Below, in pieces: positions 1,365 through 44,032 of a stretch of 64,000 bases of DNA (within the stretch, counting starts at the first letter, position 1; every line of letters begins with the position of its first letter). A model generated the notes under the pieces. That model made no database searches and had not been told where the DNA came from. It saw only the letters and a list, made by a program, of their open reading frames with translations. The DNA comes from Enterobacter sp. RHBSTW-00175. Lineage in GTDB: Bacteria > Pseudomonadota > Gammaproteobacteria > Enterobacterales > Enterobacteriaceae. The stretch spans positions 2,542,001 through 2,606,000 of the forward strand of contig NZ_CP055930.1 of the NCBI RefSeq assembly GCF_013927005.1, in the 5' to 3' direction. Position numbers and translations under genes: made by a program.

Positions 1365-1406
1365 TGTGGGATGAAAATAAAGTTTCCTCCTTGAAAATAG
1401 AGTTTC
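1365..1406 (+). repeat. Left end of the Tn7-like element (TIR plus second transposase-site repeat)
   Basis: Two copies of a GAAAATARAGTTTC-type sequence about 20 nt apart, the outer one in the terminal inverted repeat. The flanking CGAGG is at 1360-1364. Confidence 0.8.
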
Positions 1407-1411
1407 ACCCT

Positions 1412-1457
1412 AAGCCAACGTGCGCTATGTTGATGATATCAACTAGGACGTTGGCTT
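1412..1457 (+). promoter_or_regulatory. Nested inverted repeat upstream of the defence operon
   Basis: A perfect 10-bp repeat (AAGCCAACGT ... ACGTTGGCTT) encloses a second one (GTTGAT-GAT-ATCAAC). It has no T-run, lies just inside the element's left end and precedes the first gene of the defence operon. It could be an operator for the ribbon-helix-helix protein encoded at 1698, or an RNA hairpin. Confidence 0.5.
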
Positions 1458-1461
1458 TGTT

Positions 1462-1590
1462 ATGGCTGGCACATTAAGACTCGAGATACGTCGAAAATTG
1501 GATAAATGTATTGCTAAGCAGTCAGGATTCCCTATAGCTCGCCTTCGGAGTAGGAGAAACCATGAAGGATGCCGTCTGGTCCGCGAGTGA
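1462..1590 (+). CDS. Possible small basic peptide (42 aa)
   Basis: An ATG immediately after the nested inverted repeat opens a 42-codon frame rich in Arg and Lys. There is no clear Shine-Dalgarno sequence, and I do not recognise the product. It may be a leader peptide or simply transcribed leader of the operon. Confidence 0.2.
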   Translation: MAGTLRLEIRRKLDKCIAKQSGFPIARLRSRRNHEGCRLVRE

Positions 1591-1697
1591 AAAGTGCTGC
1601 ATTGTACGTAAGGTTAAGAATCGCTGTCATAGTGTATCTATTCAGTATGTGTGCATATACAATAACGCAATTGCACAGACATATGCGGGGCGTTTTC

Positions 1698-1937
1698 ATG
1701 CGATTCACTGACCTCAAAAGTGAGACCTTAAATCTAAGAGTTTCCAGAAAGTTCAAACAGGCCTTAAAGAAGGCAGCGGAGCATGAGCAGCGGAGCATGG
1801 TGAATATGCTTGAGGTACTCCTTTGTGACTATTGCGACCACAAAGGCATTGTGTTGCAAAGCCCAGAAGCCAGCCAAGAACTTGGTCAGGGTCGAGCAGT
1901 AACTGGCCGTAAAAAAAACGTAGGGGTTTCTATATGA
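1698..1937 (+). CDS. Ribbon-helix-helix (Arc/MetJ-like) transcriptional regulator
   Basis: Starting at ATG 1698 (GGGG precedes it), this 79-residue protein has a short beta strand (ETLNLRVS) followed by helix-turn-helix-like KFKQALKKAAEHEQRSMVNMLEVLL. That is the RHH fold of small DNA-binding repressors. A longer in-frame start at 1569 exists but would add a segment with no domain logic. Its stop overlaps the next methyltransferase start (ATGA), making it the first gene of the operon. It is a candidate controller of the restriction system, possibly through the inverted repeat at 1412-1457; that role is inferred from position. Confidence 0.65.
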   Translation: MRFTDLKSETLNLRVSRKFKQALKKAAEHEQRSMVNMLEVLLCDYCDHKGIVLQSPEASQELGQGRAVTGRKKNVGVSI

Positions 1938-3028
1938 CTTTTCGCTATATTGGCTCCAAATCTAGACTCGTCGACAAGATAGCATCCCACATTGGGCCGC
2001 CTAGAAAGGGCGCGTTTTTTGTGGATGCTTTTTGTGGAACTGGAGCTGTAGCTGAGGCTGCTGCGGAGCATGGTTGGAATGTGCGGATTAATGATAGCTT
2101 GCACTCAGCTGTTATCTCTGCTGGGGCACGTCTTATCAGCCATGATCAGGTGACCTTCAAAAAACTTGGTGGGTACTCTGGTGCTGTTAGCAAGCTAAAC
2201 GCAGTTAAGCCATTGCATGATTTTATGTGGCGCACTTATAGCCCCGCTTCGATCGATACGTGTGGAATTGAGCGTAGGTACTTCACCGAAGAAAATGCAG
2301 CTAAGATAGACGCTATGCGCTGCTTGATTGTTGAGTGGAAAGGTGCCGGATATATTGACGAAATTGAGGAGAGGCTATTGATTGCCGATCTCTTTAGTGC
2401 ACTGAACCGCGTTGCCAACATTGCGGGCACTTTTGGCTGCTTCCTCTCCAAATGGACAAGCCAATCTCAAAACAAGATTGCCATGCGTTGCCGTGATCTC
2501 AAAGAAACTGGAGTGTGTGTTGAGGCTAGCGTGGGTGATGTGTTCGACGTTCCGAATGTTGCACACGACCTCGTGTATTTGGACCCCCCGTACACCAAGC
2601 GTCAATACGCGAGCTATTACCACATCCTTGAAACGGTGGCTCTTGGCGATGAGCCTGTGGTGGAGGGGGTTGCGGGACTTCGTCCATGGAAGGCCTTGGC
2701 TTCTGACTTTTGCTACAAGAGCCGTGCTCTCAAAACACTCTCGCGTCTGGTTCATGGCTTGAAGGCTCAAAGGGTACTGCTCTCGTACAGTAGTGAAGGG
2801 CACATCTGCATGCAGGACATGAAGGCTGAGCTTTCTAAGATCGGCTCGTCCACAATGTACCCTTTGGGCGCCATTGGTCGATACCGGCCAAACAAGGCAG
2901 CCAGTAGCTCGGCGTCCGATGTGAATGAGTTTTTGGTGGTCGTGAAACGGTCCATGGCACAGCTTCCCCAAGCCCAGTCAAAAACAGTTAAAGCTATCAA
3001 ACCCGTTCTCGTGAGGAGCTATGCATGA
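1934..3028 (+). CDS. D12-class DNA N6-adenine methyltransferase
   Basis: A 364-residue protein opening with MTFRYIGSK, as in Dam/D12 enzymes. The S-adenosylmethionine motif DAFCGTGAV is near residues 31-39 and the catalytic DPPY motif (YLDPPYTKRQY) near 216. These features define adenine-N6 methylation of DNA. The start overlaps the RHH gene by 4 nt and the stop overlaps the next methyltransferase by 4 nt, indicating tight co-expression. In the operon it most likely protects host DNA from the McrBC-like nuclease encoded downstream; a second enzyme of another class would fit an asymmetric recognition site. The target sequence cannot be read from the DNA. Confidence 0.88.
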   Translation: MTFRYIGSKSRLVDKIASHIGPPRKGAFFVDAFCGTGAVAEAAAEHGWNVRINDSLHSAVISAGARLISHDQVTFKKLGGYSGAVSKLNAVKPLHDFMWRTYSPASIDTCGIERRYFTEENAAKIDAMRCLIVEWKGAGYIDEIEERLLIADLFSALNRVANIAGTFGCFLSKWTSQSQNKIAMRCRDLKETGVCVEASVGDVFDVPNVAHDLVYLDPPYTKRQYASYYHILETVALGDEPVVEGVAGLRPWKALASDFCYKSRALKTLSRLVHGLKAQRVLLSYSSEGHICMQDMKAELSKIGSSTMYPLGAIGRYRPNKAASSSASDVNEFLVVVKRSMAQLPQAQSKTVKAIKPVLVRSYA

Positions 3029-5244
3029 GTTCTCCTCGGCCTGTTGAATCAGAGTACCTGGCCCCAGCAGAAGCGGCACTCACTCAGGCTGTGGGAGGGG
3101 AAACCAGCTTTGAGCTTCGGCTTCAAGTTTTGGAGGCAGCATCAGCGCGTTTTGGCGGGTTTGACCTAACGGCGTTTCATGAGGCTTTTGGAGTCAAGAG
3201 CAAGCGCGCAGCATCAGATCTTTTGGAGCTTGCGGTACCTGTAGCAAGTGCCATCGAGCGTTCACCTATTCACCCTGCTTTGGCACTGAGTGTCTTGGCG
3301 CGTGAGGTCTTGCATGAGCAGGATCGAAAAAGCACGGGCGCCTACCATACGGATTTTCGCCTGGCTACACGACTGGCGCAGCTCGCAGCCCCCAAGCTCA
3401 CACACAAGAGCAAGGTGATTGATCCTGCCTGCGGTGCAGGAATTTTGCTAGCAGCGCTGACTCACGCAGTGTGTGGTATGGATAGAGCCAAGACGGCGCA
3501 TTGGTTGGCTCACGGTGTGTATGCAGCGGATCTTTCTGGCAACTCTTTGCGTGCGGCACTGCTTGCGCTTGCTTCGTTCACTGATGATGTATCGACTCTT
3601 AAGGCTATGCGTGCCCGTTGGTACTGTGGCGATAGCTTGATGGCTGATCGCAAGGTTTGGACTGCCATGGTCCCTGAGGGGTTTGATGCGGTGATCGGCA
3701 ATCCACCATGGGAAAAGGTCAAGCTCTCACGGCACGAATTCTTGAAGTCCTCAGGCACCAAGCGCCACTACGGGGCCCAAATTCATGGGCTTGATGAGGA
3801 TCTGTTTGCCCAGCAGCGCAATGAGGTAGCGAACTACTCTCGTCGCCTGTTGGCTCGCTATCCCGATTTGGGTAATGGAGAGCCAGACCTATACATTGCT
3901 TTCACGGACCTCTTTTTTGAACTCTGCAAAAAGCAGGGTGTGGTGGTTGCACTAATTCCGGGTGGGCTCATTCGCTCGCAAGGTACCCGCGCCATGCGGC
4001 AGAAAATCTTTGATGCGAGCCAAAGCGTGTCCATGTCGATCATCGATAACCGTGCACGGTTCTTTACGATCGACACACGCTTTAAGTTCCTGGCCGTGGC
4101 TCTCACTAAGGCTGGCTCTGAAAAGAGCAAGCGTGAGCCCATCACTCTCATGCATGAGCGGGGCACCCCTACGGGATTGGAGATTACGGGAACTGCCACT
4201 ATTGGGCGTGCAGCACTTGCGGGTGTTCGGGGCGATTTGAGCCTGCCCGAGGTTCGTAACGTGTCTGAGTGGAAGCTCTTCTCAAAGATCGGAGAAGCAG
4301 GTGTTTCGTGGGAAGAGCCTGGTTATGGCTGGACCCCGAAGTTTTGCCGTGAAGTTGATATGACCAAGGAGCGTCCTAAGTTCCTGGGGCGTGCCACGCC
4401 TGGCGCTTTGCCACTGGTGGAAGGTCGAATGGTGCAGGCGCATCGCTTTGGTGTAAAAGGCCACGTGTCAGGCACTGGTCGCCGTGCGTTGTGGGAGGCT
4501 TATGCCATCGGAGACTCACGCCTTGCCCCCCAGTTTTGGATTCGTCTCTCCGACATGCCCAGTGCTAACCAGCACCGTGCGGACGTGCTGCGTGTGGGCT
4601 TTTGCGACATTGCGGGTCAGACCAATGAGCGTTCGCTCATGGCCTCGTTAATTCCTGCTGGGGTGGTCTGTGGCAATAAGGTGCCCACGATCCTTTTCCC
4701 TGAAGACCCATCAGAAGAACGGCTGCTGGTGTGGGTGTCCATCGCTAACAGTTTTGCCTTTGACTGGATGCTTCGGCGTGTGCTCACTACGACGGTGAAT
4801 TACTTCCTGCTGCAAAGCGTGCCCATGCCAAAACTCGCCAAAGATGGTTTGCCATGGAAGAGGCTGGTGAGTGCTGCACGCGAATTGCGCACACTTGACA
4901 GTGCGGGGGCTACTCGTGAAACCTACGAGCGCATGGCGCAGCTTCGTGGGGAGATTGATGCGGAAGTGGCCGTGGCCTATGGGCTCGATTTGAAGGACAT
5001 GGAGTTAGTGCTCCAAGACTTCCCGCTTTTGGATCGGGGCCAAGTGGGCTTGCCAGGTGAGGCCAAGTCCACAATTACCCGAGATAATGTTTTGGCTGCA
5101 ATGGCAAAACGCACAGGAAGTCTGTCTACAGTTTGGTCGCACCGTGCGATGCAGGCACGCGCGCTGGGGGCGATTGCTTATGTACCCTCTGAGTTCGCTC
5201 TGGGGGGCGAAGAAATAGAAGAAGGATCCAAAATTCATGGCTAA
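3025..5244 (+). CDS. Eco57I-type adenine-specific DNA methyltransferase
   Basis: A 739-residue protein with motif I (DPACGAGILLAAL, near residue 133) and the NPPW catalytic motif (VIGNPPWEKV, near residues 225-232) of gamma-class N6-adenine methyltransferases. A long C-terminal half resembles the target-recognition part of Eco57I/type IIG enzymes. I see no PD-(D/E)XK nuclease motif in the N-terminal 120 residues, so it appears to be methylase-only, with cleavage supplied by the McrBC-like pair. It overlaps both neighbours. Target specificity is unknown. Confidence 0.85.
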   Translation: MSSPRPVESEYLAPAEAALTQAVGGETSFELRLQVLEAASARFGGFDLTAFHEAFGVKSKRAASDLLELAVPVASAIERSPIHPALALSVLAREVLHEQDRKSTGAYHTDFRLATRLAQLAAPKLTHKSKVIDPACGAGILLAALTHAVCGMDRAKTAHWLAHGVYAADLSGNSLRAALLALASFTDDVSTLKAMRARWYCGDSLMADRKVWTAMVPEGFDAVIGNPPWEKVKLSRHEFLKSSGTKRHYGAQIHGLDEDLFAQQRNEVANYSRRLLARYPDLGNGEPDLYIAFTDLFFELCKKQGVVVALIPGGLIRSQGTRAMRQKIFDASQSVSMSIIDNRARFFTIDTRFKFLAVALTKAGSEKSKREPITLMHERGTPTGLEITGTATIGRAALAGVRGDLSLPEVRNVSEWKLFSKIGEAGVSWEEPGYGWTPKFCREVDMTKERPKFLGRATPGALPLVEGRMVQAHRFGVKGHVSGTGRRALWEAYAIGDSRLAPQFWIRLSDMPSANQHRADVLRVGFCDIAGQTNERSLMASLIPAGVVCGNKVPTILFPEDPSEERLLVWVSIANSFAFDWMLRRVLTTTVNYFLLQSVPMPKLAKDGLPWKRLVSAARELRTLDSAGATRETYERMAQLRGEIDAEVAVAYGLDLKDMELVLQDFPLLDRGQVGLPGEAKSTITRDNVLAAMAKRTGSLSTVWSHRAMQARALGAIAYVPSEFALGGEEIEEGSKIHG

Positions 5245-5809
5245 TGGAGCGGGACAGGTTGCTCGAATTCTGTACAAGGAGATTGTTGAGGGAGATCGAC
5301 GGAAAGCTGATGCGGAGTCTAATGACTCTGATTCTGGAGGGGGGGCAAGAGACTTTCGATTTCCCTACGAGGCGGTGTTGCCAGCTGTTGAGTTGATATT
5401 TCCCAATAAAATTCTCCGGGGTGGAAAGGCAGTACATCAAGGTACCTTCTTTTGGAACGAGCCGGACTCAACACAGGTTGTATCAAGAGCAGCTGAGTTT
5501 ATGTCACCCACAAAGTCTCGGCCGAGAGAGGGATGGATTTCTCAGGTGCCGAAATTTTCATGTTTTGATTCGGACCGAATGCCATCAGGGGGAATTGGGA
5601 ATCGCGTTTTGTTGCTTCTGATTCAGCTTCATGACCAGTCGGTTTGGCCGCACTTCGCGGAAGAAGCAACTCTTCGTGTTAAAGGCGTTTGGGATCCTTC
5701 AGTTGCTCAAGAGCTATTGAGTTGTTTGGATGCACAGCGGGCTGCTAATCGAGCCGTAATTGGCTATATCGACTTCACGAACATGCGTAGGTTCTGTAAT
5801 GGTAAGTGA
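5237..5809 (+). CDS. Unknown protein of the methyltransferase-McrBC operon
   Basis: A 190-residue protein whose start overlaps the end of the methyltransferase gene by 8 nt and whose end overlaps the McrB-like start at 5799. It is locked into the operon and probably required stoichiometrically. It has a charged N-terminal region (residues 15-35 rich in D, S, G) and no motif I recognise. McrB proteins usually carry an N-terminal DNA-recognition domain, but the McrB-like protein here starts almost directly at its Walker A. This gene may therefore encode that recognition module as a separate polypeptide; that is speculation from layout. Confidence 0.6.
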   Translation: MANGAGQVARILYKEIVEGDRRKADAESNDSDSGGGARDFRFPYEAVLPAVELIFPNKILRGGKAVHQGTFFWNEPDSTQVVSRAAEFMSPTKSRPREGWISQVPKFSCFDSDRMPSGGIGNRVLLLLIQLHDQSVWPHFAEEATLRVKGVWDPSVAQELLSCLDAQRAANRAVIGYIDFTNMRRFCNGK

Positions 5810-6938
5810 AAACTGCAAACAGGTGTTAAAGCTACTCGCACGTTCGCGCAACGTGCTGGTGTCTGGTGCACCTGGCACGGGCAAGTCCAAGCTCTTGGCC
5901 GAAGTTGCTTTGGCCTTTGAAACAGCCTTTGGTCTTGCTCCTGCAGGTGGCCCACCGCAGCTCAATCCCATGGGCGGCATCCCTATTCCCCCTGCTGCTG
6001 GGGTTGTTAAAGACATTCCTGCACCCACCAAGATGGACCGCAAAGTCTTTCGGACGGTCTTCCACCAAAACTCCAAGTACCGCGATTTCTTATCGGGCAT
6101 CACGCCTGCGGTCAACAAGACAGCAGGAGACCCAGACTTCACCATCGTGAAGGGGACTCTGTACCGTGCCAGTGAGCATGCGAAGGGTGCCAATGGGGCT
6201 GCACTGTTGATCATTGATGAGATCAACCGAGGTCCTGCGGTGCAGGTGTTCGGTGGTGCCATTGTGGCCATTGAGTCCGATAAACGCTTGGCCTCTGATG
6301 GGGCCAAACTTGCTGAAACGCAGTTCTTTGAAATGCTCGATCCCGTCTCTGGTGATGTGATCGAATACGCACTGCCCCATGACCTCTATATCCTGGCTGC
6401 GATGAATCAGGCCGATGCGTCTGTGGAGCCCTTGGATGTCGCGTTCTTGCGTCGTTGGGAACCTATGCGCCTAGAGCCCGATGAGGCGGCTTTGCGGACG
6501 TTTTACGGTTTGGGTGCCAAGGGTGTCAATGCATTGCCTGATGTACCTGCCAGCGTGAACGATGCCTTGGAGGCTTCGGTGAGTGCCTGGATTGCTGTAA
6601 ACGCGCAAATTGCTCTGGGCCGTGGTCCCGAGTTTCAGATCGGGCATGGTGTACTGATGTCGGATGTGAAGCCGCAAACATTGGGCCTTAATGAAGCTTT
6701 GGGCACGCTGTGTGTAGGGTGGGCGAAGGTGCGGGCACACGTGGAAGAGGTATTCTTCGGGGACACACGAGGAATTGCAGCGGCTCTTAATGCGCTGGAT
6801 GGGCCAGCCTTTAATCCGTTCAAGCTCACCGAGACAACTTTTGCGGATGATTTACGCTTTCGTTTTGAAGGGCCCACGAATTTTGCTGAGAACAATATCT
6901 ACGCAGCTCTCAGGGCATTTGCCAATCCGAGGGGGTAG
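5799..6938 (+). CDS. McrB-like AAA+ ATPase/GTPase of a restriction system
   Basis: ATG 5799 gives 379 residues; an upstream ATG at 5760 would bury the start in the previous gene. Walker A is SGAPGTGKS at residues 22-30, Walker B is LLIIDEINRG near 136-145, and LAAMNQADAS (about 198) and FLRRWEP (about 214) fit the McrB/MoxR sensor and arginine-finger region. In McrBC systems this ring-forming motor translocates DNA and drives the McrC nuclease. Unlike E. coli McrB it has almost no N-terminal DNA-binding domain. The stop lies 3 nt before the McrC-like start. Confidence 0.85.
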   Translation: MVSENCKQVLKLLARSRNVLVSGAPGTGKSKLLAEVALAFETAFGLAPAGGPPQLNPMGGIPIPPAAGVVKDIPAPTKMDRKVFRTVFHQNSKYRDFLSGITPAVNKTAGDPDFTIVKGTLYRASEHAKGANGAALLIIDEINRGPAVQVFGGAIVAIESDKRLASDGAKLAETQFFEMLDPVSGDVIEYALPHDLYILAAMNQADASVEPLDVAFLRRWEPMRLEPDEAALRTFYGLGAKGVNALPDVPASVNDALEASVSAWIAVNAQIALGRGPEFQIGHGVLMSDVKPQTLGLNEALGTLCVGWAKVRAHVEEVFFGDTRGIAAALNALDGPAFNPFKLTETTFADDLRFRFEGPTNFAENNIYAALRAFANPRG

Positions 6939-6941
6939 CAC

Positions 6942-8246
6942 GTGGTGAACCCCCGAACACGGCTGTCCCTTATTGAGTACGGTACACCCGTTGACCTGAG
7001 CCGTGCGATTGCTGAAGCGATTGGGGTGGATCGCACGAAGGCCAACAGCCTTTTATTGGAGGCTGGGAGCCGGATTGCGTCGAGCTTAAGGCTTAGCTAC
7101 AACCCTATCAGTGTGGATGCCAAGGGCACACGTGCCATCGATTTTGCGGGCCTCATTCGCCTGGCACCTTCACTGGAACTGGAAGTTGCTCCCAAGTTTT
7201 TGGGACTCGACGACACAGATGCAGCGTGGCGCGAAGATTTCTTTTTCCTCTCCACGCTTTCACGTCATGGGCGGCTCTTGGCTTCCGAACGCTTATCGGC
7301 ATCAGGTGGTACCCCAAGGGATTTGTCTACGCTAGTAGCTCGTTCCATCACGAGCATGTACGAGGCCCGTAAACGTCGGCCACTGCGCAGTTATCGTAGT
7401 GTGCGTGAAGCAGACTTCTTCATCGATGGGGATCCTGATCCGGTGGATCTCATCTTTCCTTCACCTGATGGCTTTGAGCAAGAGCTCATTCGCTTTGATC
7501 GCAAGAACGGTTGGAACGGGGATATCGTGGCAGCGGCCAGGGAGTTACTCCCTGAAGTAAGTGACCCTTCAGCCGCAAGTTCGCTGGTGCGTTTGATTGA
7601 GGACCTTTCGCCTCAGAACGTTGCTGCTAACCGTCGAAACCCCATTCCTGCACGGCACCGAGCGTGGAAGCCACTGCATGAGCTGTCTATCGATGTGCTC
7701 GGAGGCCTGGGGCTTAACTACAAGCAGGGACAGGCCCATGCACCTGGTTACTTAGTGAATACCTGGCGCGTGTGGGAAGATCTGTTAACGGTGGCCGCAC
7801 GATTGGGCTTTGGTCGCAGTGCCGTAGTGCCCCAACAGGGCTATCCCTTAGGCACTAAGATCAGGATGATTACCGGTGCTGTGAGCAAGCTTTCAGTGTA
7901 CCCAGACTGTGTAATTGAGCTCGATGGAACAAGGCCCAGGATGCTGCTGGATGCCAAGTACAAGGGCCACGTGGAGAAGGGACAGCTTCGCATCAGTGAA
8001 GCTGACATCTACGAAGCCCTGGCCTTCTCCAAGGCTACTGGATGCAACCTAGTGGCACTAGCCTATCCTGCACAACCAAGCGATGCCCCGCAGCCCGTAG
8101 GGACGTGCACTGTCTTTGAAAAGGCTGTGGTGGATGCCGTGCAAATCGTGGGCATTCAGATCGAGAGCCGCCTGATTTCTAGGGCGGGAGCTCTCAGATT
8201 ATTTGCCGCAAACATGGCTGCTGGGGTTACAGCAGCCTTTGTGTGA
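6942..8246 (+). CDS. McrC-like PD-(D/E)XK nuclease subunit
   Basis: A 434-residue protein with GTG start (GAGGGGG about 10 nt upstream). Near residues 320-342 it has YPDCVIELDG followed by LLDAKYKGH, the D...(D/E)xK catalytic signature of McrC nucleases. The N-terminal 300 residues contain an McrC-like fold with IDFAGLIRL and LEVAPKFLG. It should dock on the McrB-like ring and cut DNA. With two adenine methyltransferases in the same operon the set resembles LlaJI-type restriction-modification more than modification-dependent McrBC. It is the last gene; about 320 nt further is the element's right end. Confidence 0.87.
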   Translation: MVNPRTRLSLIEYGTPVDLSRAIAEAIGVDRTKANSLLLEAGSRIASSLRLSYNPISVDAKGTRAIDFAGLIRLAPSLELEVAPKFLGLDDTDAAWREDFFFLSTLSRHGRLLASERLSASGGTPRDLSTLVARSITSMYEARKRRPLRSYRSVREADFFIDGDPDPVDLIFPSPDGFEQELIRFDRKNGWNGDIVAAARELLPEVSDPSAASSLVRLIEDLSPQNVAANRRNPIPARHRAWKPLHELSIDVLGGLGLNYKQGQAHAPGYLVNTWRVWEDLLTVAARLGFGRSAVVPQQGYPLGTKIRMITGAVSKLSVYPDCVIELDGTRPRMLLDAKYKGHVEKGQLRISEADIYEALAFSKATGCNLVALAYPAQPSDAPQPVGTCTVFEKAVVDAVQIVGIQIESRLISRAGALRLFAANMAAGVTAAFV

Positions 8247-8420
8247 TTGATTCAAGGGCTTCTTCCTAACAGATTTAGCGATGGTTGATTTTACATTTAG
8301 GGGCGGTCTGAAAACGTTTAACATTGTCGGCAGCCAGGAGCTTGACTGCGCCATAACAGCAGGTTAAGTAGTTCCAAGCGTTGGCGTACCAGTATGCCTT
8401 TAAGGCTTTCTAATCGCTAA
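8247..8420. other. Non-coding tail between the McrC-like gene and the transposon right end
   Basis: No credible gene. The stretch is unremarkable apart from its position inside the Tn7-like element. Confidence 0.5.
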
Positions 8421-8566
8421 GTATGAAACTTTATTTCTACGGATCCGACCGGCAGGTGCGCCCGGCCTCTGGTTTAGGATGATAACCCCTCCTTTTTCGA
8501 ACAAAAAAACACCGATCCAGGCGGCTTTTGCCGTTAGTTAGTATTAAACTTTATTTTCATCCCGCA
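8421..8566 (-). repeat. Right end of the Tn7-like element (TIR and internal repeat)
   Basis: In reverse complement this begins TGCGGGATGAAAATAAAGTT, and about 125 nt further inside is a second AGAAATAAAGTTTCAT. Widely spaced repeats at one end and close repeats at the other is the asymmetric layout of Tn7 ends. The duplicated CGAGG is at 8567-8571. Confidence 0.8.
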
Positions 8567-20973: not shown

Positions 20974-21266
20974 TGATAATCCCTTGATTAATAATTAAAT
21001 GGATGACTTAAGCCAGGCTGCGATATTCTGGGTAATGCTGTCAACCTGTTGATGACTATTTTAATCTGTAGTCATTCAATCCTTGTAACATCAGGATGAT
21101 CCTGGTGTCAGTGAAAATACGAAATCAACACGTTGGTATCATTACCCACCTGTGAACTGACGTCGGCATTTTGAATCTCACTTCGGCGTGCCCCCTCCGA
21201 ATGGCGCAAAACATTTCGTGGTATGGCATGATAGCACCCGAAGAGAGTCAATTCAGGGTGGTAAAT

Positions 21267-22341
21267 GTGAAACCAGTAACGCTATACGATGTCGCAGAGT
21301 ATGCCGGTGTCTCTTATCAGACCGTTTCCCGCGTGATGAACCAGGCCAGCCACGTCTCTGCGAAAACGCGGGAAAAGGTGGAAGCGGCGATGGCGCAGCT
21401 GAACTACATTCCCAACCGCGTGGCACAACAACTGGCGGGCAAACAGTCGTTGCTGATTGGCGTTGCTACCTCCAGTCTGGCCCTGCACGCGCCGTCGCAA
21501 ATTGTCGCGGCGATTAAATCTCGCGCCGATCAACTGGGTGCCAGCGTGGTGGTGTCGATGGTAGAACGAAGCGGCGTCGAAGCCTGTAAAGCGGCGGTGC
21601 ACAATCTTCTCGCGCAACGCGTCAGTGGGCTGATCATTAACTATCCGCTGGATGACCAGGATGCCATTGCTGTGGAAGCTGCCTGCGCTAATGTTCCGGC
21701 GTTATTTCTTGATGTCTCTGACCAGACTCCCATCAACAGTATTATTTTCTCCCATGAAGACGGTACGCGACTGGGCGTGGAGCATCTGGTCGCATTGGGT
21801 CACCAGCAAATCGCGCTGTTAGCGGGCCCATTAAGTTCTGTCTCGGCGCGTCTGCGTCTGGCGGGCTGGCATAAATATCTCACTCGCAATCAAATTCAGC
21901 CGATAGCGGAACGGGAAGGCGACTGGAGTGCCATGTCCGGTTTTCAACAAACCATGCAAATGCTAAATGAGGGCATCGTTCCCACTGCGATGCTGGTTGC
22001 CAACGATCAGATGGCGCTGGGCGCAATGCGCGCCATTACCGAGTCCGGGTTGCGCGTTGGTGCGGATATCTCGGTAGTGGGATACGACGATACCGAAGAC
22101 AGCTCGTGTTATATCCCGCCGTTAACCACCATCAAACAGGATTTTCGCCTGCTGGGGCAAACCAGCGTGGACCGCTTGCTGCAACTCTCTCAGGGCCAGG
22201 CGGTGAAGGGCAATCAGCTTTTGCCCGTCTCTCTGGTGAAAAGAAAAACCACCCTGGCGCCCAAGACGCAAACCGCCTCTCCCCGCGCGTTGGCCGATTC
22301 ATTAATGCAGCTGGCACGACAAGTTTCCCGACTGGAAAGCG

Positions 22342-22349
<8 letters not shown>
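21267..22349 (+). CDS. lacI: Lactose operon repressor LacI
   Basis: 360 residues, almost identical to E. coli LacI as remembered. The GTG start is the K-12 one (GTGAAACCAGTAACG). The N-terminal helix-turn-helix (TLYDVAEYAGVSYQTVSRV), hinge and ligand-binding core are intact, and the C-terminal tetramerisation helix (LMQLARQVSRLESGQ) is present. Differences I can see from K-12 include Met for Val24, next to the recognition helix, and Gln for Glu44. The promoter region from CGAATGGCGCAAAAC on is E. coli-like, while sequence before about 21200 is not, marking the left edge of the transferred lac segment. Confidence 0.97.
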
Positions 22350-25546
<3,197 letters not shown>

Positions 25547-25552
25547 TAATAA

Positions 25553-26833
<1,281 letters not shown>

Positions 26834-32374: not shown

Positions 32375-33361
32375 ATGAAAAAAACGACTTCACGCAAGGC
32401 GGCTCGCCGTCCGGCAAAACCGACTGACCTTTATCGCCAGATCACCGACCGCATTGTTGTCGCGCTGGAAAACGGCGTAGCGCCCTGGCGTAAGCCGTGG
32501 CGCGCGGCTGCCGGCAGCGGTCTGGCCGGTCTGCCCCTGAATGCCACAACCGGACGTCACTACAGCGGCGTGAATGTCCTGCTTCTCTGGATGTCAGCGG
32601 AAGAGCAGGGTTTTCGCAATAACCGCTGGATGACTTACCGGCAGGCGCAGCAGGCTGGCGGGCAGGTGCGTAAGGGTGAGAAAGCCACCCTGGCGGTGGT
32701 TTATAAGGACTGGACGAAGCAGGCAGAGGATCGCGAAGGCAACCGCCTTTATGACAGTGACGGTAAACCGCTGATGGAAACCGTGCCGATGCTCAAACCC
32801 CTGCAGCTGTTCAACGCTGAGCAGTGTGAGGGGTTGCCGGCAGAGGTTGCGGCTTCACCTGAGCAACCACCGACGGTGGATGAGGACGGCATACTCTGTC
32901 CGGACGTGATGAACAGGGTGATCCGGATGTTTAACGCCACTGGGGTTAAAAACCGGATGCTGCCTCAGAACCGGGCATATTACCGCCCGCTGACGGATGA
33001 AATTGTGATGCCGATGGCTGAGCAGTTTTTTACGGAAGCGGACTGCTGGTCCACGCTGTTGCATGAGCTTGTACACAGTACCGGTCATGCGAAGCGACTT
33101 AACCGGGAGGGGATAACCTCCTCATCCCGGCAGTTCGGGGACCCGGTGTATGCCTTTGAGGAGCTCATCGCCGAAATGGGCAGCGCGTTTTTGTGTGCTC
33201 AGCTCGGCGTGTTCGGTGAGGTTCAGCACGACAGCTATGTGGACCACTGGCTGAAGGTGCTGAAATCTGACAAAAAGGCCCTGTTCCGCGCCTGCCGGCA
33301 TGCCCGGGAAGCGTCGGAATATCTGCTGGCACTGCCTGAAAGTCAGGCTGTGGCGGCGTAA
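32375..33361 (+). CDS. ArdC-like antirestriction protein (ssDNA-binding domain plus zincin-like metallopeptidase)
   Basis: 328 residues. The N-terminal half has the ArdC-N fold sequence DLYRQITDRIVVALENGVAPWRKPW…LPLNATTGRHYSGVNVLLLW. The C-terminal half has a zinc protease site, HELVH near residues 230-234, with STGH after it and a downstream EELIAEMG for the third ligand. ArdC of plasmid pSa protects incoming single-stranded DNA and blocks restriction in the recipient. On an ICE that also carries two restriction-type systems, it probably eases entry into new hosts. Preceded by a long GC-rich hairpin leader. Confidence 0.85.
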   Translation: MKKTTSRKAARRPAKPTDLYRQITDRIVVALENGVAPWRKPWRAAAGSGLAGLPLNATTGRHYSGVNVLLLWMSAEEQGFRNNRWMTYRQAQQAGGQVRKGEKATLAVVYKDWTKQAEDREGNRLYDSDGKPLMETVPMLKPLQLFNAEQCEGLPAEVAASPEQPPTVDEDGILCPDVMNRVIRMFNATGVKNRMLPQNRAYYRPLTDEIVMPMAEQFFTEADCWSTLLHELVHSTGHAKRLNREGITSSSRQFGDPVYAFEELIAEMGSAFLCAQLGVFGEVQHDSYVDHWLKVLKSDKKALFRACRHAREASEYLLALPESQAVAA

Positions 33362-34737: not shown

Positions 34738-37296
34738 ATGAACAGGTTATTGGTTATAAAGGAAGAAAATCATACAGTTAACCCTGATATGGGGCTTGTG
34801 ATTCCTGTTGCTTATCTTGATGAAAATGGAAATTATGAAAAAATTGATCCTAGCGATTTTCCTAATGGAGGAATATTTATTTCCAAAGGATTTTTGAATA
34901 TAAGCCAGCAGTTTGGATATGATGAATTATTTATTCTTAATGAATATTACGAAAGCAATGATGATGACTGGAAAATTAATACAAGACATCAAAAGCATTT
35001 TGGACTTGGAAGTAAAGTAGAAAGGCTCGATAAAAGCTACTTTATTCCAATTATAAAATCTGCTCTCCCCGATATAAAAACAGGTTTCCTTGGTCATGAT
35101 ATTGACGCCCCTAGCGCTCAATTCTTTATTGAGAATGAGGGCTATGTATATGGACCGTTTAAAGCCTCCAAACAAGATAACAATTGGCAATTATCTCCTT
35201 TATCTACACCGTCACCCTTACAGCTTAAACAAGACCATATAGCAAGGTTTGATTTAAAGGAAATTATAGCTAATGATTTTTCTTATGAGTTAATTATTAA
35301 AGGTGAAGTTAGAAAATATATTAAAAATTTGAAAGACCTCTCCAGTTTATTGTTTGAGCAAAAAGATTACATTTCAGATACAAGGCTTGTTTCTTACTTC
35401 ACCAAAAATGGATTTGGAAATGGATTTTCGAAAAATAAATCTCCTTTAGGAAAAAGTGAAGCGCAAAAGTTGTCGCAAGGGATTGATGAGTATGTTAAGA
35501 AGAATAAAGTATTAGAGAATAGCGAGCGTCTTAAAAGACTTAAGGAGCTACTTGGAGAATTTTTAGATTCAAGTCCATTCGGCCAAGAGATTGTTCAAGA
35601 GTTTTTAGCAGAAAGTAGGGATGGCAGGCTTTATTTAGATGATTATTTCAGCAAAAATAAAGACCTGCTGGTTAAGCAAAAGTCTAAAGAACTAGAGGAA
35701 GTTACTCGAGTACAGAAGAGTAAATTAAATAAAGAGATAAGTGATTTAGAAAGGCTAATAACAAATAAAAAAGCAGAATTAGATTCTGAATTAAAAAATG
35801 TTGAATATGAAAAGGTCAGGGCTAGAGAAGAACTTGAGAGAATAAAAAAACAGTCTGCTGAAGATGCTCATGACCTTCTCCTTCAAAAACAGCAGGCTTT
35901 GACGGAAAAAAATGCTGAGTTAGAAGAAAACATTAAAAATGCAAGCATTAAGCTTGAACAATTCTACTCAATGGAGTCTAGGGTAAATGATTATAATTCT
36001 CTGAATGAAGAAATAAATTATCTGAAAAGGCTTAAAGAGGATATTGAAAAAGACAAAGAATCAGCTGAGAAAGCACTTAAACTTAAAAAAGCAACTTTGA
36101 ACTCTCCACAGCTTCTGGAAAAAACTGTAGAGATACAAACAATACAAAACCTCAAAACTCTCTTGAATGGTGGCAGGGCAAGAGAAAGCACGCCGAAAAT
36201 ATATAAAACAAAGATAAATCCATCAACTATCGAACTGAATAAAGAAAACAGAAAAGAATACATTAATTACTTAGTTGATTCATTTAGCAACGATAATGGA
36301 AGGAATTTTTCATTTGATGAAATGGCGAATTTAATTATATGCTTGAATCAATCATTCATGACAATTTTATCAGGCCCTCCGGGAACAGGAAAAACCTCCA
36401 CGGCTATTAGATTAGCTCAAAATATGGGCTTGACTAATGGTGAGAATACATACAATACTAGTAACTTTATTAATATTCCAGTCGGAAGAGCTTGGGTATC
36501 AAGCCGAGACATCTTAGGATTTTATAATTCCTTAAAAGACGTTTACCAGCCAGCCCGTACAGGTCTTTATGAGTTTTTGAAGAGTGATCATAATCCAGAT
36601 TATTTGAAAATAATTCTACTTGATGAGGCCAACCTGTCTAGCGTCGAACACTATTGGTCAGACTTTCTAGGTATGTGTGATCCCGAAGGAAGAAATAGAA
36701 AAATTGATTCTGGCATTCCATCTGAAGACGAAAGATATATTACCGTGGCTGATGGTGTGCGTTTTATAGCAACTATTAACAATGATGCGTCAACTGAACG
36801 TTTATCGCCAAGGTTAATCGACCGGGTACCCGTAATAGGTTTAAATCACAACGCAGAATTTAAATCGAACGTTATAAGATCTTTAGCATTTGAAGGCGCT
36901 GTGAAAAACGAATGGTTGGAAAGTTGTTTTGATGTGAGCTTATATGAGTCTTCTTTTACGACGGAAGAGGAGAACTTACTTGATGAAATAATAGAAATAT
37001 TAAAAGCTCCTCTTACCAGAACTACTTCTGTTAGAGTCAGTCAAAGAAAATATAATGCAATGAAGAGGTATTGCTATATTGCTAATGAAATCGAAGGGTT
37101 ACAAGTTCAGCCTCTAGATTTTGCAATAAATCAGCACGTTTTGCCATTGATTGAGGGGTACGGTGCAGGTTTCAAAGAAAGATTGCACAATCTTGAGCAA
37201 AAGCTTGTGGAGTTTGATCTTCATATTTCTAAAGCAACACTTAGAAATATAATAAATAATGGTGATATTTATAGCGAATCTTACTCTTATTTTTAG
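34738..37296 (+). CDS. Coiled-coil McrB-like AAA+ ATPase (CoCoNuT-like)
   Basis: 852 residues. An N-terminal region of about 310 residues without a motif I recognise is followed by a long heptad-rich coiled coil (about 315-475, many E/K/L). Then comes an AAA+ domain: Walker A SGPPGTGKTS near 544-553, Walker B IILLDEANLS near 625-634, sensor FIATINNDAS near 675. This N-domain/coiled-coil/McrB layout is that of CoCoNuT-type McrB proteins, proposed to sense and restrict foreign nucleic acid, possibly RNA. Strongly AT-rich, unlike the backbone. The partner nuclease starts 11 nt after its stop. Subtype cannot be settled by eye. Confidence 0.75.
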   Translation: MNRLLVIKEENHTVNPDMGLVIPVAYLDENGNYEKIDPSDFPNGGIFISKGFLNISQQFGYDELFILNEYYESNDDDWKINTRHQKHFGLGSKVERLDKSYFIPIIKSALPDIKTGFLGHDIDAPSAQFFIENEGYVYGPFKASKQDNNWQLSPLSTPSPLQLKQDHIARFDLKEIIANDFSYELIIKGEVRKYIKNLKDLSSLLFEQKDYISDTRLVSYFTKNGFGNGFSKNKSPLGKSEAQKLSQGIDEYVKKNKVLENSERLKRLKELLGEFLDSSPFGQEIVQEFLAESRDGRLYLDDYFSKNKDLLVKQKSKELEEVTRVQKSKLNKEISDLERLITNKKAELDSELKNVEYEKVRAREELERIKKQSAEDAHDLLLQKQQALTEKNAELEENIKNASIKLEQFYSMESRVNDYNSLNEEINYLKRLKEDIEKDKESAEKALKLKKATLNSPQLLEKTVEIQTIQNLKTLLNGGRARESTPKIYKTKINPSTIELNKENRKEYINYLVDSFSNDNGRNFSFDEMANLIICLNQSFMTILSGPPGTGKTSTAIRLAQNMGLTNGENTYNTSNFINIPVGRAWVSSRDILGFYNSLKDVYQPARTGLYEFLKSDHNPDYLKIILLDEANLSSVEHYWSDFLGMCDPEGRNRKIDSGIPSEDERYITVADGVRFIATINNDASTERLSPRLIDRVPVIGLNHNAEFKSNVIRSLAFEGAVKNEWLESCFDVSLYESSFTTEEENLLDEIIEILKAPLTRTTSVRVSQRKYNAMKRYCYIANEIEGLQVQPLDFAINQHVLPLIEGYGAGFKERLHNLEQKLVEFDLHISKATLRNIINNGDIYSESYSYF

Positions 37297-37307
37297 GATT
37301 GTTGATT

Positions 37308-39164
37308 ATGAAAATTAAGGTTTCAATTTTAGGGGGGAAGCGTCAGGGAGATGCTTTTGAACTGAAGTTAATCGATGAAAAAATCAACTCATCATTATTC
37401 ATTCTTGAAGATGAAGCTATAGAAATAGCCTTTACGAGTGAAAACTATTACGAAAAGATTTCTTTGTTATTATACGAAAATGAAGTGGAACCTACTTTAA
37501 TCGAACGTGTAGGCGAGCTTTGGACTTACAGATGGCTTCCCAAAAGGCTAGGGCGTTTTTCATATGAATGTTTTTTCCATAATTACTATGGAATAGCCGA
37601 ATTAGTACTTGAAGCTCAATACGGTGAAAGGACTGAACTTTTTAGTTTTCAATCGATAGAAGTTCTGGCAAAAAAGTTAAATGCAGAGCGAGTTGATAAG
37701 ATGCTGAACTATATAGCAAAAATCGATAGTAATGCTCTTTGTGCTTTTTTCAGAGTAACTCGGCGGAAAGCAGGTTTCAAAAATGGGGATACTCCTGCTG
37801 AAATTTTACTAGAACAAATTGAAAGCATTGTCGAAATAACGACAACCCTGATAAGAAAAATAATACAAAGACCTATTTCTAAATTAACAAGTCGGGAGAA
37901 ATATGTTTATCCGAGTGACAACACAAATATTGATGATTTGACGCTGTCATGGCTATGTAGCAACACTGATGAGCTATTTGAAACAGATTCATATGAAAGT
38001 GCAATTTTGGAGTTTAACGATGAGCTTTATGGGGCGAGAAAGCTTATTGAGCACCAGGCAGTAGAAGATTCTGACGTTTATGAAAATCAAGTTTTGCATG
38101 GTTTTGTTATGACTTTAATTCAAACCACTTCTTCTCTTCTTTCAGGCTTCAAAAACCCTGATAAGTATCCAAATAGAATAAATGGAAGCCCTTTAGGGTA
38201 TGTTAGTTTTTTCTCTCAAATACAAAAATTTCAGAAGAGTATTAATGGGCGAAAAATTTTAAAATGCAAATCAATATTATCAGATTTACATTCTCTTAAA
38301 AGGATAATGGCAGAGGTGATGCCTGCAAAAAAACATATAATCGGAGTGCCCACGTTTACAATGAAAGCCAAAAAGGATCCTTTATACCTTTCTGTTTTCA
38401 AAAAGATCGTTGACTGGTACCGATTTGGGAAACCTGATTGGAGTGTTCAAGAAGAGTTATTATCCATACAAAGCATTCCAAAATTGTTTGAATACTATTC
38501 TCTTTTCTATATAAGAGAGATATTAGGACAGCATATAGGCTCTAAATCCGCGCCCGAACCAGTTAATGAATCAATATCATTTGTTTTTAATCTTAGAAAA
38601 GGGGCTACTCTAAAATTACTATATGAGCCAAAATATTGGATGGCCACCCATCCCATGGCAGACCTAAGAGGTTTGGTTAACAGTGAAGGATGGACAACTT
38701 ACAATGGTATGGTGACTCATCGTTCTTCCTCAGGGAGATTTTCTAATCGATCTCCCGACTTTGTAATACATATTAGCAATGGGAATGGTATTGACAAGTA
38801 TCTCATTCTTGATGCGAAGTATACTTCTACTGATAAAGCCTTTTTACATTATTTACCTGAGTTAACGCTTAAATATCTTCATGGACTTCATTCTATTTCA
38901 GATGCAAATAGTTCCATCATTGGTTTGATTATTTTAAATCCTGATGAGAAACTACTCATTAGAGATTTCCATAATTCATCATTTGATATTTATTCGGATA
39001 GGCCAGCTATGCCATTTTTATTATGCGCTACCATTTCTCCTGGGGAAGAGTATATAAGTAATAATTGTTTCCAACATTCTCTTTTAAAGATGGTAACTCT
39101 TATGGAGCAACGTGTTAACACAGAAGGTCAAGGTCGCTACTTAATGAACGTTTTAAGTGCTTAG
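37308..39164 (+). CDS. DUF2357/McrC-like PD-(D/E)XK nuclease
   Basis: ATG 37308 gives 618 residues; a TTG at 37299 is possible. The C-terminal region has RSPDFVIHI (near 480) and YLILDAKYTS (near 498-505), the D…DxK nuclease signature of McrC partners. The N-terminal part is beta-rich, as in DUF2357 proteins. With the upstream AAA+ protein it forms a two-gene McrBC-like system. No helicase or CARF-like gene sits beside it, so it would be a minimal version. No methyltransferase is linked, in contrast to the system at 1.9-8.2 kb. Confidence 0.78.
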   Translation: MKIKVSILGGKRQGDAFELKLIDEKINSSLFILEDEAIEIAFTSENYYEKISLLLYENEVEPTLIERVGELWTYRWLPKRLGRFSYECFFHNYYGIAELVLEAQYGERTELFSFQSIEVLAKKLNAERVDKMLNYIAKIDSNALCAFFRVTRRKAGFKNGDTPAEILLEQIESIVEITTTLIRKIIQRPISKLTSREKYVYPSDNTNIDDLTLSWLCSNTDELFETDSYESAILEFNDELYGARKLIEHQAVEDSDVYENQVLHGFVMTLIQTTSSLLSGFKNPDKYPNRINGSPLGYVSFFSQIQKFQKSINGRKILKCKSILSDLHSLKRIMAEVMPAKKHIIGVPTFTMKAKKDPLYLSVFKKIVDWYRFGKPDWSVQEELLSIQSIPKLFEYYSLFYIREILGQHIGSKSAPEPVNESISFVFNLRKGATLKLLYEPKYWMATHPMADLRGLVNSEGWTTYNGMVTHRSSSGRFSNRSPDFVIHISNGNGIDKYLILDAKYTSTDKAFLHYLPELTLKYLHGLHSISDANSSIIGLIILNPDEKLLIRDFHNSSFDIYSDRPAMPFLLCATISPGEEYISNNCFQHSLLKMVTLMEQRVNTEGQGRYLMNVLSA

Positions 39165-39474
39165 GGGGATTGTAAAGTTTTACATTAAATATCTCCTGAA
39201 GAATTCTATAGATAAAAATAGTGCGTGAATAGCGGAGAGAGTGAATGAAAGACCAATTAAGATAATTGATAGCGATTATTGTTAACGTCAGCGCAAGTTT
39301 GTGGATGTTGCTAACTTGTCATGTATACGTAGTATAAAAAAATAAGATCATCATTTTTACGCTCCCGCTCGGGGGCGTTTTTTATCTTTGAAAAAAGGGA
39401 TCTGGTTTTTTCTCGAAGTGCACGCTTCCCGCTGTCAGGCTGTTTTTTTACATCTGCTGCTGCGGGAGAACACA
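39165..39474. other. Intergenic region ending the AT-rich insert
   Basis: AT-rich to about 39355, then GC-rich ICE sequence resumes with a hairpin CGCTCCC/GGGGGCG plus T-run (39360-39383), a terminator or leader element before the helicase gene. No gene seen. Confidence 0.5.
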
Positions 39475-40983
39475 GTGACCTGGAAAACAACAGCCGAACA
39501 AAACGCCATCATCGAGTGGAAGGGCAATCATCTCGTGGTGAATGCCTTTGCCGGTACAGGTAAAACCTCCACTTTAGTGAGTTACGCTGAAGCCAACCCG
39601 GAAAGTAAAATGCTTTACCTCGCCTATAATCGCGCTGTGCGGGATGAGGCTGAACGCAAATTCCCCTATAACGTAGAGTGTAAAACGTCGCATCAGCTTG
39701 CATGGGCCCGTTTCGGCAAACATTTCCGTGACCGGCTGACAGCCAGTCTGCGCATTACGGATGTGGCCAGAAAGCTCAATACCCGCCACTGGGCGCTGGC
39801 GCGGCTGGCGCTCAGCGGGCTGAACATGTTCCTCTGCAGTGCTGACCCCGAGCCGGGGCTGATACATCTGCCGTCTGAGGATGATCGCCACGGTCTCGAT
39901 GCCGGTAAAATTCTGGGGGCAATACAAATCCTCTGGTATGAAATGAGCCGTACTGATTCAGTCTTTCCCGTCACGCACGACACCTACCTTAAACTGTTCC
40001 AGCTCTCTCATCCTGACCTGTCAAAACGCTGGGACACCATCCTCTTCGACGAGGCACAGGACGCCAATCCGGTGACCAGTGCATTTGTACTGAATCAGCC
40101 CTGCCGGGTCATTCTGGTCGGCGACCGTTACCAGCAGATATACCGGTTTCGGGGGGCAGATAATGCACTGAGAGCCCCGCAGCTGGTGCAGGCAGACCGG
40201 TTGTGGCTGACAGCGAGTTTTCGGTTTGGCCCTGAGGTCGCGCGGATGGCCAACATCCTGCTTGAACGTGCCGGAGAGGAAAAGCGCGTGACAGGTAACG
40301 GGGGGCAGGATGCTGTCGTCAGCAGCCTTCCGGCAGGGGCTGAGCATATTGCTGTACTGAGCCGGACGGTATCCGGCGTGATCGGCAGTGCCCTGACGGC
40401 GAGCCTTATGGAGAAAAATGTCTTCTGGGTCGGGGGGATTGAAGGCTACAAAACAGAGGAGCTGGAAAACCTGTACTGGTTCTCCGCCGATATGCCTGAA
40501 AAGATGCAGTCCCCGCGCCTCAGCCGGGACTACCGGGATTTTGATGAATACTGCTCAATAGCAAAAGCCACACAGGACGTGGAGATGAACCAGGCCATTC
40601 GTCTTCTCGATGACTTTTTCCCACTACCGCAAAAGCTGGCCATCATGCGCCGTCAGGTGGTAACCCATGAGAAAGACGCTCAGGTCACGGTTTCAACCGC
40701 ACACCGCAGCAAAGGGCTGGAATGGCCGGTGGTAATGCTGAGTGAGGATTTTACTGACATTACCGACCCGCTTCTTTCGCAGGATGAGCGGCAGGATGAG
40801 ACTAACCTGCTGTACGTGGCTGTCACCCGGGCCAGAAGAACGCTTGTGCTTAACGAACTGATGCGCTGGCTGAGTGATGAAGGCGGGAAAAACCGCGAGA
40901 CGACGCACGAAACCGTACCGTCCGGAAATGGAGAGAGCGCCGACAGGCACGAAGAAACGGGAAAAACTTCTGAGAGTGAGTAA
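39475..40983 (+). CDS. UvrD-like superfamily 1 DNA helicase of the ICE
   Basis: GTG 39475 follows GCGGGAGAA; an upstream in-frame start at 39388 would read through leader sequence. The 502-residue protein has motif I AFAGTGKTS (residues 24-32), motif II LFDEAQDANP (about 190), motif III DRYQQIYRFRGA, motif V STAHRSKGLEW and motif VI LYVAVTRAR of SF1A helicases. It lacks the large 1B/2B domains of UvrD. It lies directly before the TraI_2 gene, suggesting a role in strand unwinding during transfer or excision. Confidence 0.82.
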   Translation: MTWKTTAEQNAIIEWKGNHLVVNAFAGTGKTSTLVSYAEANPESKMLYLAYNRAVRDEAERKFPYNVECKTSHQLAWARFGKHFRDRLTASLRITDVARKLNTRHWALARLALSGLNMFLCSADPEPGLIHLPSEDDRHGLDAGKILGAIQILWYEMSRTDSVFPVTHDTYLKLFQLSHPDLSKRWDTILFDEAQDANPVTSAFVLNQPCRVILVGDRYQQIYRFRGADNALRAPQLVQADRLWLTASFRFGPEVARMANILLERAGEEKRVTGNGGQDAVVSSLPAGAEHIAVLSRTVSGVIGSALTASLMEKNVFWVGGIEGYKTEELENLYWFSADMPEKMQSPRLSRDYRDFDEYCSIAKATQDVEMNQAIRLLDDFFPLPQKLAIMRRQVVTHEKDAQVTVSTAHRSKGLEWPVVMLSEDFTDITDPLLSQDERQDETNLLYVAVTRARRTLVLNELMRWLSDEGGKNRETTHETVPSGNGESADRHEETGKTSESE

Positions 40984-43761: not shown

Positions 43762-43792
43762 TTGACTGGGATTATTGCCAGTGATCGAGAAC

Positions 43793-43818
43793 AGGGAGCC
43801 TGCGGACACAGGCTCCCT
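43793..43818 (+). repeat. Inverted repeat after the integrase gene
   Basis: AGGGAGCCTG/CAGGCTCCCT, a perfect 10-bp stem with a 6-nt loop and no T-run. It may terminate int transcription or form part of the attachment-site architecture. Confidence 0.5.
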
Positions 43819-43956
43819 GACTTGAGGGACTGATTCAGAAACGTTAACCAGTGCAGATACGCCTACACCGGAGGACATTCCGTAATGACCGGCCCCTGTA
43901 TTAACCGCCCGTTAAGGTTCTCATCTCTTAACCAGCGTGCTTTGATGCAAAATTAG

Positions 43957-44032
43957 TGGTGCCCGGACTCGGAATCGAACCAAGGACACGGGGATTTTCA
44001 ATCCCCTGCTCTACCGACTGAGCTATCCGGGC
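43957..44032 (-). tRNA. pheU: tRNA-Phe (GAA), ICE attachment site
   Basis: Read on the minus strand it is GCCCGGATAGCTCAGTCGGT…, with anticodon loop around GAA and a 3' end GTCCGGGCACCA; 76 nt including encoded CCA. All four arms pair. Its 3' end faces the integrase, so the right-hand attachment core lies within the last bases of this gene and the tRNA is kept intact. The gene context (yjdC, dsbD beyond) matches E. coli pheU. Confidence 0.95.

Follow-up and report, generated by a model that had tools for sequence, protein, structure and literature searches.

What would an McrBC-like motor and nuclease do in one operon with two adenine methyltransferases? This question is raised by positions 1698-8246 of a 64,000-nucleotide stretch of Enterobacter sp. 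RHBSTW-00175 (contig NZ_CP055930.1, positions 2,542,001 to 2,606,000), which we call the window. We consider it likely that this six-gene operon is a complete restriction-modification system that is protected by adenine methylation, works like LlaJI and has its DNA reader in trans. The gene set points to restriction-modification of a Type II style, with an McrBC motor nuclease, two protecting adenine methylases and probably a separate reader, and it is found across at least four phyla, on Tn7-like and plasmid elements.

Gene content of the operon

The six open frames all lie on the + strand in one tight run. Neighbouring genes overlap by 4, 4, 8 and 11 bp, and a gap of 3 bp separates the McrB-like from the McrC-like gene, which bears out the claim of a first-pass annotation that the six genes overlap or nearly touch. 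The frames are:

1698..1937, + strand: RHH-like protein, 79 aa (sub-threshold TacA1/RHH_5 match; present in 14 of the 19 loci compared below)
1934..3028, + strand: D12-class (DPPY) adenine methyltransferase, 364 aa (PF02086, E 1.7e-27; motifs kept)
3025..5244, + strand: Eco57I/Alw26I-type (NPPW) adenine methyltransferase, 739 aa (profile matches; motifs)
5237..5809, + strand: ORF4, 190 aa, a stand-alone protein with a predicted B3-type fold, exchanged as a cassette (AlphaFold, VIA-align, exchange analysis)
5799..6938, + strand: McrB-like AAA+ motor, 379 aa, without an N-terminal reader domain (profile and structure matches, motifs)
6942..8246, + strand: McrC-like protein, 434 aa, with a PD...DAK nuclease motif (PF10117; motifs)

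Profile matches upheld the earlier labels for the D12, Eco57I-type, McrB-like and McrC-like genes, and ORF4 again had no family; the RHH label was the weak one, as the TacA1 model scored 17.3 bits against a cut-off of 21. The sequence of this small protein suggests that it is probably a regulator of the operon. The second methylase matched the Eco57I family (PF07669, E 8.5e-10) and the NCBIfam model for Alw26I/Eco31I/Esp3I methylases (4.5e-31, yet under the cut-off of that model). Pfam listed no cytosine-5 methylase profile for either enzyme; both matched adenine classes (D12 and Eco57I/N6_Mtase).

The McrB-like motor matched AAA_5 (E 7.1e-10), the NCBIfam McrB model (1.4e-13, under its cut-off) and the McrB structure 6hz4 (E 1.9e-12). 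Its best start is the ATG at 5799, although the mechanical open frame opens at a TTG at 5760. Counted from this ATG, Walker A occupies residues 23-30, so the protein begins directly at the AAA+ module, and no DUF3578 methyl-cytosine reader was found among its Pfam matches at E values up to 1. The McrC-like protein matched PF10117 (E 1e-11) and belongs to the PD-(D/E)xK nuclease class; it had no match in PADLOC or NCBIfam. ORF4 had no family match in Pfam, PADLOC or NCBIfam, and 42 aligned relatives of ORF4 gave no convincing Pfam match (best E 0.0011). As neither PADLOC nor NCBIfam matches ORF4 or the McrC-like protein, defence annotation would not assemble the system and splits the operon into unrelated pieces.

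Linkage of the five genes

A scan with the McrC query over one genome per species gave 14 loci, and the five-gene set was whole in 13 of them; the exception, L015, is interrupted by a contig end. The comparison covered these 13 loci, the window itself, and five further loci taken from plasmids or from E. coli. The D12, Eco57I-type, ORF4, McrB and McrC genes were present in the same order in all 19 loci, which represent fewer independent lineages because some are near-copies (the window, L002 and L012; also the Sphingobium baderi and Sphingomonas plasmids, with equal identities for both methylases and McrB). Four phyla are covered: Bacillota (L013, with 30-49% identity by gene), Actinomycetota (L025), Eremiobacterota (L014, a metagenome-assembled genome) and many Pseudomonadota. 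Five genes in one order at every locus is an arrangement far beyond chance.

The same linkage was seen in 72,556 plasmids. Five separate protein searches returned the same six best records each time, two of which are near-identical Pimelobacter plasmids. These records made up all six of the McrC matches, all six of the ORF4 matches, and the first six of 8 Eco57I-type, 59 D12 and 63 McrB matches. After the sixth record identity dropped from 50 to 35% for D12, from 42 to 31% for the Eco57I-type enzyme and from 39 to 31% for McrB. Because five different queries return the same six plasmids, the linkage is independent of the McrC query.

The catalytic residues are kept as well. The SAM motif, DPPY, NPPW, Walker A and B, NxxD and PD...DAK were present in 19 of 19 loci apart from small variants, namely a Walker B of DEMN for DEIN in L026x and L027, NEAD for NQAD in L025, and an altered D12 motif I in L013.

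The close groups, namely the window with L030 and L003 with L011, appear in both the methylase tree and the McrB+McrC tree (13 of the 19 loci used); some deeper branches disagree. These results support well the view that the two methylases and the McrBC-like pair form one inherited unit, and the first-pass proposal that the methylases are joined genetically to the McrBC-like pair agrees with them. An McrBC system with accidental methylase neighbours was ruled out because the linkage is too strict.

The operon is rare in E. coli (5 of 5,426 complete genomes). A search for McrB in 60 related genomes gave a match in 11; the window's own genome and one congeneric genome hold the operon's form, and the remaining nine carry other McrB proteins with 30-39% identity. 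ORF4 was found only as the window's own copy among 398 Pseudomonadota genomes and was absent from 50,697 phage records; in viral contigs none of 8 pattern matches was confirmed. A Pfam screen of the window's own genome gave no match to the McrBC family, though that family's model does match the McrC protein (1e-11), so this screen is lossy.

The methylase pair

The two methylases belong to different adenine classes and are unlike each other. BfiI has two methylases, one for each strand of an asymmetric site (PMC4267653; here and below, papers cited by PMC number are drawn on as excerpts). As the operon likewise combines two unlike methylases with a B3-type reader, an asymmetric site can be proposed, and by this analogy one methylase per strand would fit.

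Outside the six plasmid records there were 53 relatives of the D12 enzyme, and the surroundings of five were inspected. The nearest full-length ones, about 35% identical, lie in Paracoccus beside an N-6 methylase and an HNH endonuclease, and in Roseobacter beside an unnamed third protein. More distantly, a D12 relative in Psychrobacter adjoins a second Dam-family methylase, and two of the five are one 617-residue protein adjoining an HNH or putative restriction endonuclease. The second methylase had two outside relatives: one is in a record without annotation, and the other, a distant relative in Roseomonas, adjoins two helicase genes. Given the ordinary Type II-like surroundings of the D12 relatives, it seems from these comparisons that an adenine methylase pair of the ordinary Type II kind has been joined here to an McrBC-type restriction side.

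ORF4 as a probable separate reader

Two AlphaFold models of ORF4 predicted a B3, or EcoRII-N, pseudobarrel fold. The best structural matches of both models (VIA-align) include the B3 domains of BfiI, UbaLAI and EcoRII-N; LlaJI.R1 was missing from the matches of the first model and present for the second, and Foldseek E-values were not significant. ORF4 is a separate gene in 19 of 19 loci, and there was no ORF4-McrB fusion among the 120 matches listed. On these predicted structures, ORF4 is probably the DNA reader, carried as a separate subunit. The first-pass annotation had the genetic logic of the operon right, and this is well supported, but it missed ORF4 as the probable reader. Conservation is comparatively high at residues 26-43 and 90-101: between ORF4 forms their mean differences are 0.15 and 0.19, compared with 0.49-0.54 for residues 44-89, the most changed part. 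From the alignment ranges and the arm positions of BfiI, we infer that these two segments may be the DNA-reading arms.

Between related operons ORF4 stands out sharply. L003 and L011 share mostly 89-99% DNA identity along the operon and 46-69% at positions 5200-5999, the flanks at 4700-5199 and at 6000 being intermediate (76-88%); their proteins are 97% (D12), 90% (Eco57I-type), 91% (McrB), 96% (McrC) and 57% (ORF4) identical. For L004 and L010 the values are mostly 80-96% and, at 5300-5799, 36-64%. The window and L003 share 89-97% at 3400-4999, 88-97% at 6200-7999, 58-88% in the first genes and 37-69% at 5300-5799. The window and L004 share one ORF4 form (form A, tree support 100/100), and this clade was rejected on the McrB+McrC tree (p 2.65e-5; 13 of the 19 loci, the group having been picked after tree inspection). 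When the window and L004 were set against ten other loci, form-A-specific columns numbered 38 of 190 in ORF4, 1 of 364 in D12, 0 of 739 in the second methylase and 0 in both McrB and McrC; four columns in the RHH frame lie in an over-extended start with gaps in most rows. Mere fast evolution of ORF4 was rejected because identity falls sharply at this gene in backbones that are mostly 80-99% identical, and because one ORF4 group was rejected on the McrB+McrC tree. These comparisons indicate that ORF4 is exchanged as a cassette between conserved backbones.

Several results count against this picture of a clean exchange of a reader. L003 and L011 as sisters in ORF4 were not rejected (p 0.067), and their divergent stretch is wider than ORF4, as it also takes in the last part of the second methylase and the beginning of McrB. 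A test of loop conservation reached significance only in pairs that include L011 (p 0.0005-0.002), and not for L004/L010 (0.11), the window with L003 (0.22), the window with L030 (0.22) and the form-A columns (0.46).

What might the exchange accomplish? Since ORF4 is swapped without a change in the methylases, it is best explained if all forms read one site and differ on surfaces that are seen by something else, for example phage inhibitors. We put forward more tentatively that the stand-alone B3 protein could be a swappable recognition module acting in trans, comparable to the HsdS subunit in Type I systems, whose forms would either alter the restriction target, possibly guiding the methylases too, or escape phage inhibitors that bind ORF4. 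The bolder of these two possibilities is that specificity changes; a loop contrast confined to the L011 pairs, together with form-A changes within and beside the second loop (residues 90-101), leaves room for it. We know of no earlier McrBC system with an exchangeable reader acting in trans. A parallel exists in Campylobacter jejuni, where two strains have different N-terminal parts of McrB and a conserved far C-terminal part (PMC8713573).

Proposed mechanism and alternatives

We propose that both the D12 and the Eco57I-type enzyme would methylate adenine within a single short asymmetric site, each acting on its own strand, and would in this way protect the host. ORF4, as a separate B3-type subunit, would read the unmethylated site in incoming DNA and recruit the McrB-like AAA+ ring, which would move along the DNA by nucleotide hydrolysis, and McrC would cut the foreign DNA. 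The RHH protein would probably set expression of the operon. The motor carries the NxxD signature of McrB GTPases, but no intrinsic GTPase was seen for LlaJI.R1 (PMC1459862), so either GTP or ATP may be used. The separate reader is the accessible part of this model: it invites the questions of whether a trans-acting subunit can direct an McrB ring, and of what causes the reader to be swapped but not the methylases.

The same genes could be read in other ways. If this were a Type IV, modification-dependent McrBC that happens to be accompanied by methylases, modified DNA would be what ORF4 recognises, and the methylases would have a different function; we regard this as very unlikely. BfiI and EcoRII read unmodified sites, and the host would not survive a reader that recognised the operon's own methylation. 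The B3 domain of LlaJI likewise reads an unmodified site (PMC12707154), and the Type IV reading does not sit well with five-gene linkage in 19 of 19 loci or with the close groups shared by the methylase and McrBC trees. What speaks for it is that E. coli McrBC reads modified DNA, that McrBC systems are treated as Type IV (PMC11090510, PMC7680126, PMC1459862), and that B3 is described as one of several domains occupying the reader position of McrB.

It is also quite improbable that the operon works by exclusion of the BREX, DISARM or MADS type, in which the methylases would mark self and the McrBC-like proteins would block phage replication without simple site cutting. The core genes of BREX and DISARM are PglZ, BrxC or DrmA/B/C with a helicase. 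Searches of Pfam, PADLOC and NCBIfam identified none of them in the operon's six products, the nuclease residues PD...DAK are kept at every locus, and a second methylase of the D12 class better matches an asymmetric site. Some similarities do lean towards exclusion, as such systems contain methylases of this kind: MAD2 is matched by the second methylase (5.9e-14), which also has weak matches to PglX and DrmMI (E 0.01-0.02), the motor weakly matches mad8 (4.5e-4), the Roseomonas methylase relative has its two helicase neighbours, and one McrB branch has a DISARM-like association (Bell et al., PMC11090510). Within restriction-modification itself, ORF4 might be an accessory protein or sensor, with the site recognized elsewhere, such as by McrC or via the methylases. 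The swapping of ORF4 forms without corresponding methylase changes and the non-significant Foldseek values favour this version, and the structural matches of both ORF4 models to B3 domains point to a reader; we think the accessory role rather unlikely.

Genomic setting

The operon is the only cargo of a Tn7-like element:

1365..8566, no strand assigned: Tn7-like element without tns genes, 7,202 bp, with ends TGTGGGATGAAAATAAAGTTT and AAACTTTATTTTCATCCCGCA and a 5-bp direct repeat CGAGG on both sides
1375..1405, no strand assigned: two AAATRRAGTTT repeats at the left end (1375, 1395), with opposite-strand partners at 8426 and 8546 near the right end

The repeats are likely transposase-binding sites, a role suggested by their sequence and placement. 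The CGAGG duplication is perfect, and of tnsA just the first codons are recognisable; the element has probably either been mobilised in trans or shed its tns genes. In a Shewanella plasmid (L029, annotated with tnsA, tnsB-like, tnsC-like, TnsD and TnsE) this left end immediately precedes tnsA. It also precedes the operon in Pseudomonas (L011), for which no right end was found. No clean empty site was found for the Tn7-like insertion, which counts against our reading; one related E. coli conjugative element was checked. At the same place between conjugation genes, that element (L032, 7071-10868) carries a YobI family P-loop NTPase, and this suggests that the insertion place is a cargo hot spot.

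A conjugative element hosts the Tn7-like element: conjugation genes are annotated in the corresponding E. coli region, and a TraI-type relaxase/helicase gene is present in the window as well. A phage-type integrase beside tRNA-Phe (window 42730-44032) is the probable end of an integrative conjugative element. Tn7-like elements with defence cargo are already known (PMC8649781). On the Sphingobium baderi plasmid (L031, 472-9413), an IS66 element between the second methylase and ORF4 splits the operon, and two transposition-type genes (one with a Mu transposase C-terminal domain, the other an ATP-binding protein) lie upstream of it.

Further genes lie elsewhere in the window. At 34738-39164 an 852-aa protein matching the PADLOC candidate PDC-M26A (2.3e-22) is followed by a 621-aa DUF2357 protein (1.3e-6). 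DUF2357 is the N-terminal domain of McrC homologs (PMC11090510), and these two genes are possibly a second McrBC-related pair. After them comes a UvrD-type helicase (39388-40983). A lac operon (LacI-LacZ-LacY, 21171-26833) lies between the restriction operon and the integrase, and an ArdC-type antirestriction protein (32375-33361) is encoded not far from the restriction operon.

Comparison with known systems

E. coli McrBC shares the McrB-like AAA+ motor and McrC-like nuclease. It has no associated methylase according to PMC1459862, in agreement with the first-pass annotation, whereas this operon has two, linked in 19 of 19 loci. Additionally, E. coli McrB has a fused DUF3578 reader that binds methyl-cytosine (PMC7680126), and the motor described here lacks DUF3578. 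BsuMI of B. subtilis, a candidate precedent for a third restriction gene, was not shown to be one by a control-genome search.

Two further comparisons concern the reader. BfiI, UbaLAI and EcoRII-N have B3 domains structurally like the ORF4 models, and BfiI also has two methylases and an asymmetric site; however, BfiI carries its reader in one polypeptide with a PLD nuclease that needs no motor, whereas here McrB and McrC are motor and nuclease (PMC4267653). In CglI and NgoAVII the B3 reader and the motor likewise reside on different polypeptides and restriction is NTP-driven (PMC4267653). These systems differ in having an SF2 helicase motor, a PLD nuclease fused to B3 and one C5 methylase, in contrast to the AAA_5 motor and PF10117 PD...DAK nuclease of the operon.

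Bell et al. 2024 (PMC11090510) placed NxxD-type McrB proteins next to predicted DNA methyltransferases, as in this operon, and announced a separate paper. An operon of D12, Eco57I-type enzyme and stand-alone reader is not described in the excerpts of that article, and the announced paper was not found. The open-licence literature searched likewise yielded no account of an operon that combines adenine methylases with a separate B3 reader.

LlaJI (Lactococcus pNP40; Helicobacter LlaJI) is the closest described system. Both combine an McrB-like NTPase and an McrC-like nuclease with methylases in one operon. The LlaJI methylases are 5mC enzymes, as PMC1459862 confirms for the contrast drawn in the first-pass annotation, and those of the operon are of the D12 and Eco57I adenine classes. 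The B3 domain of LlaJI is fused to R1, whereas the predicted B3 protein here is a separate, exchanged gene, and the RHH-like gene that heads the operon in 14 of 19 loci is a further difference. As two LlaJI features, the 5mC methylases and the fused reader, are not shared, we do not file the operon as a LlaJI system, but only as one that would work like LlaJI.
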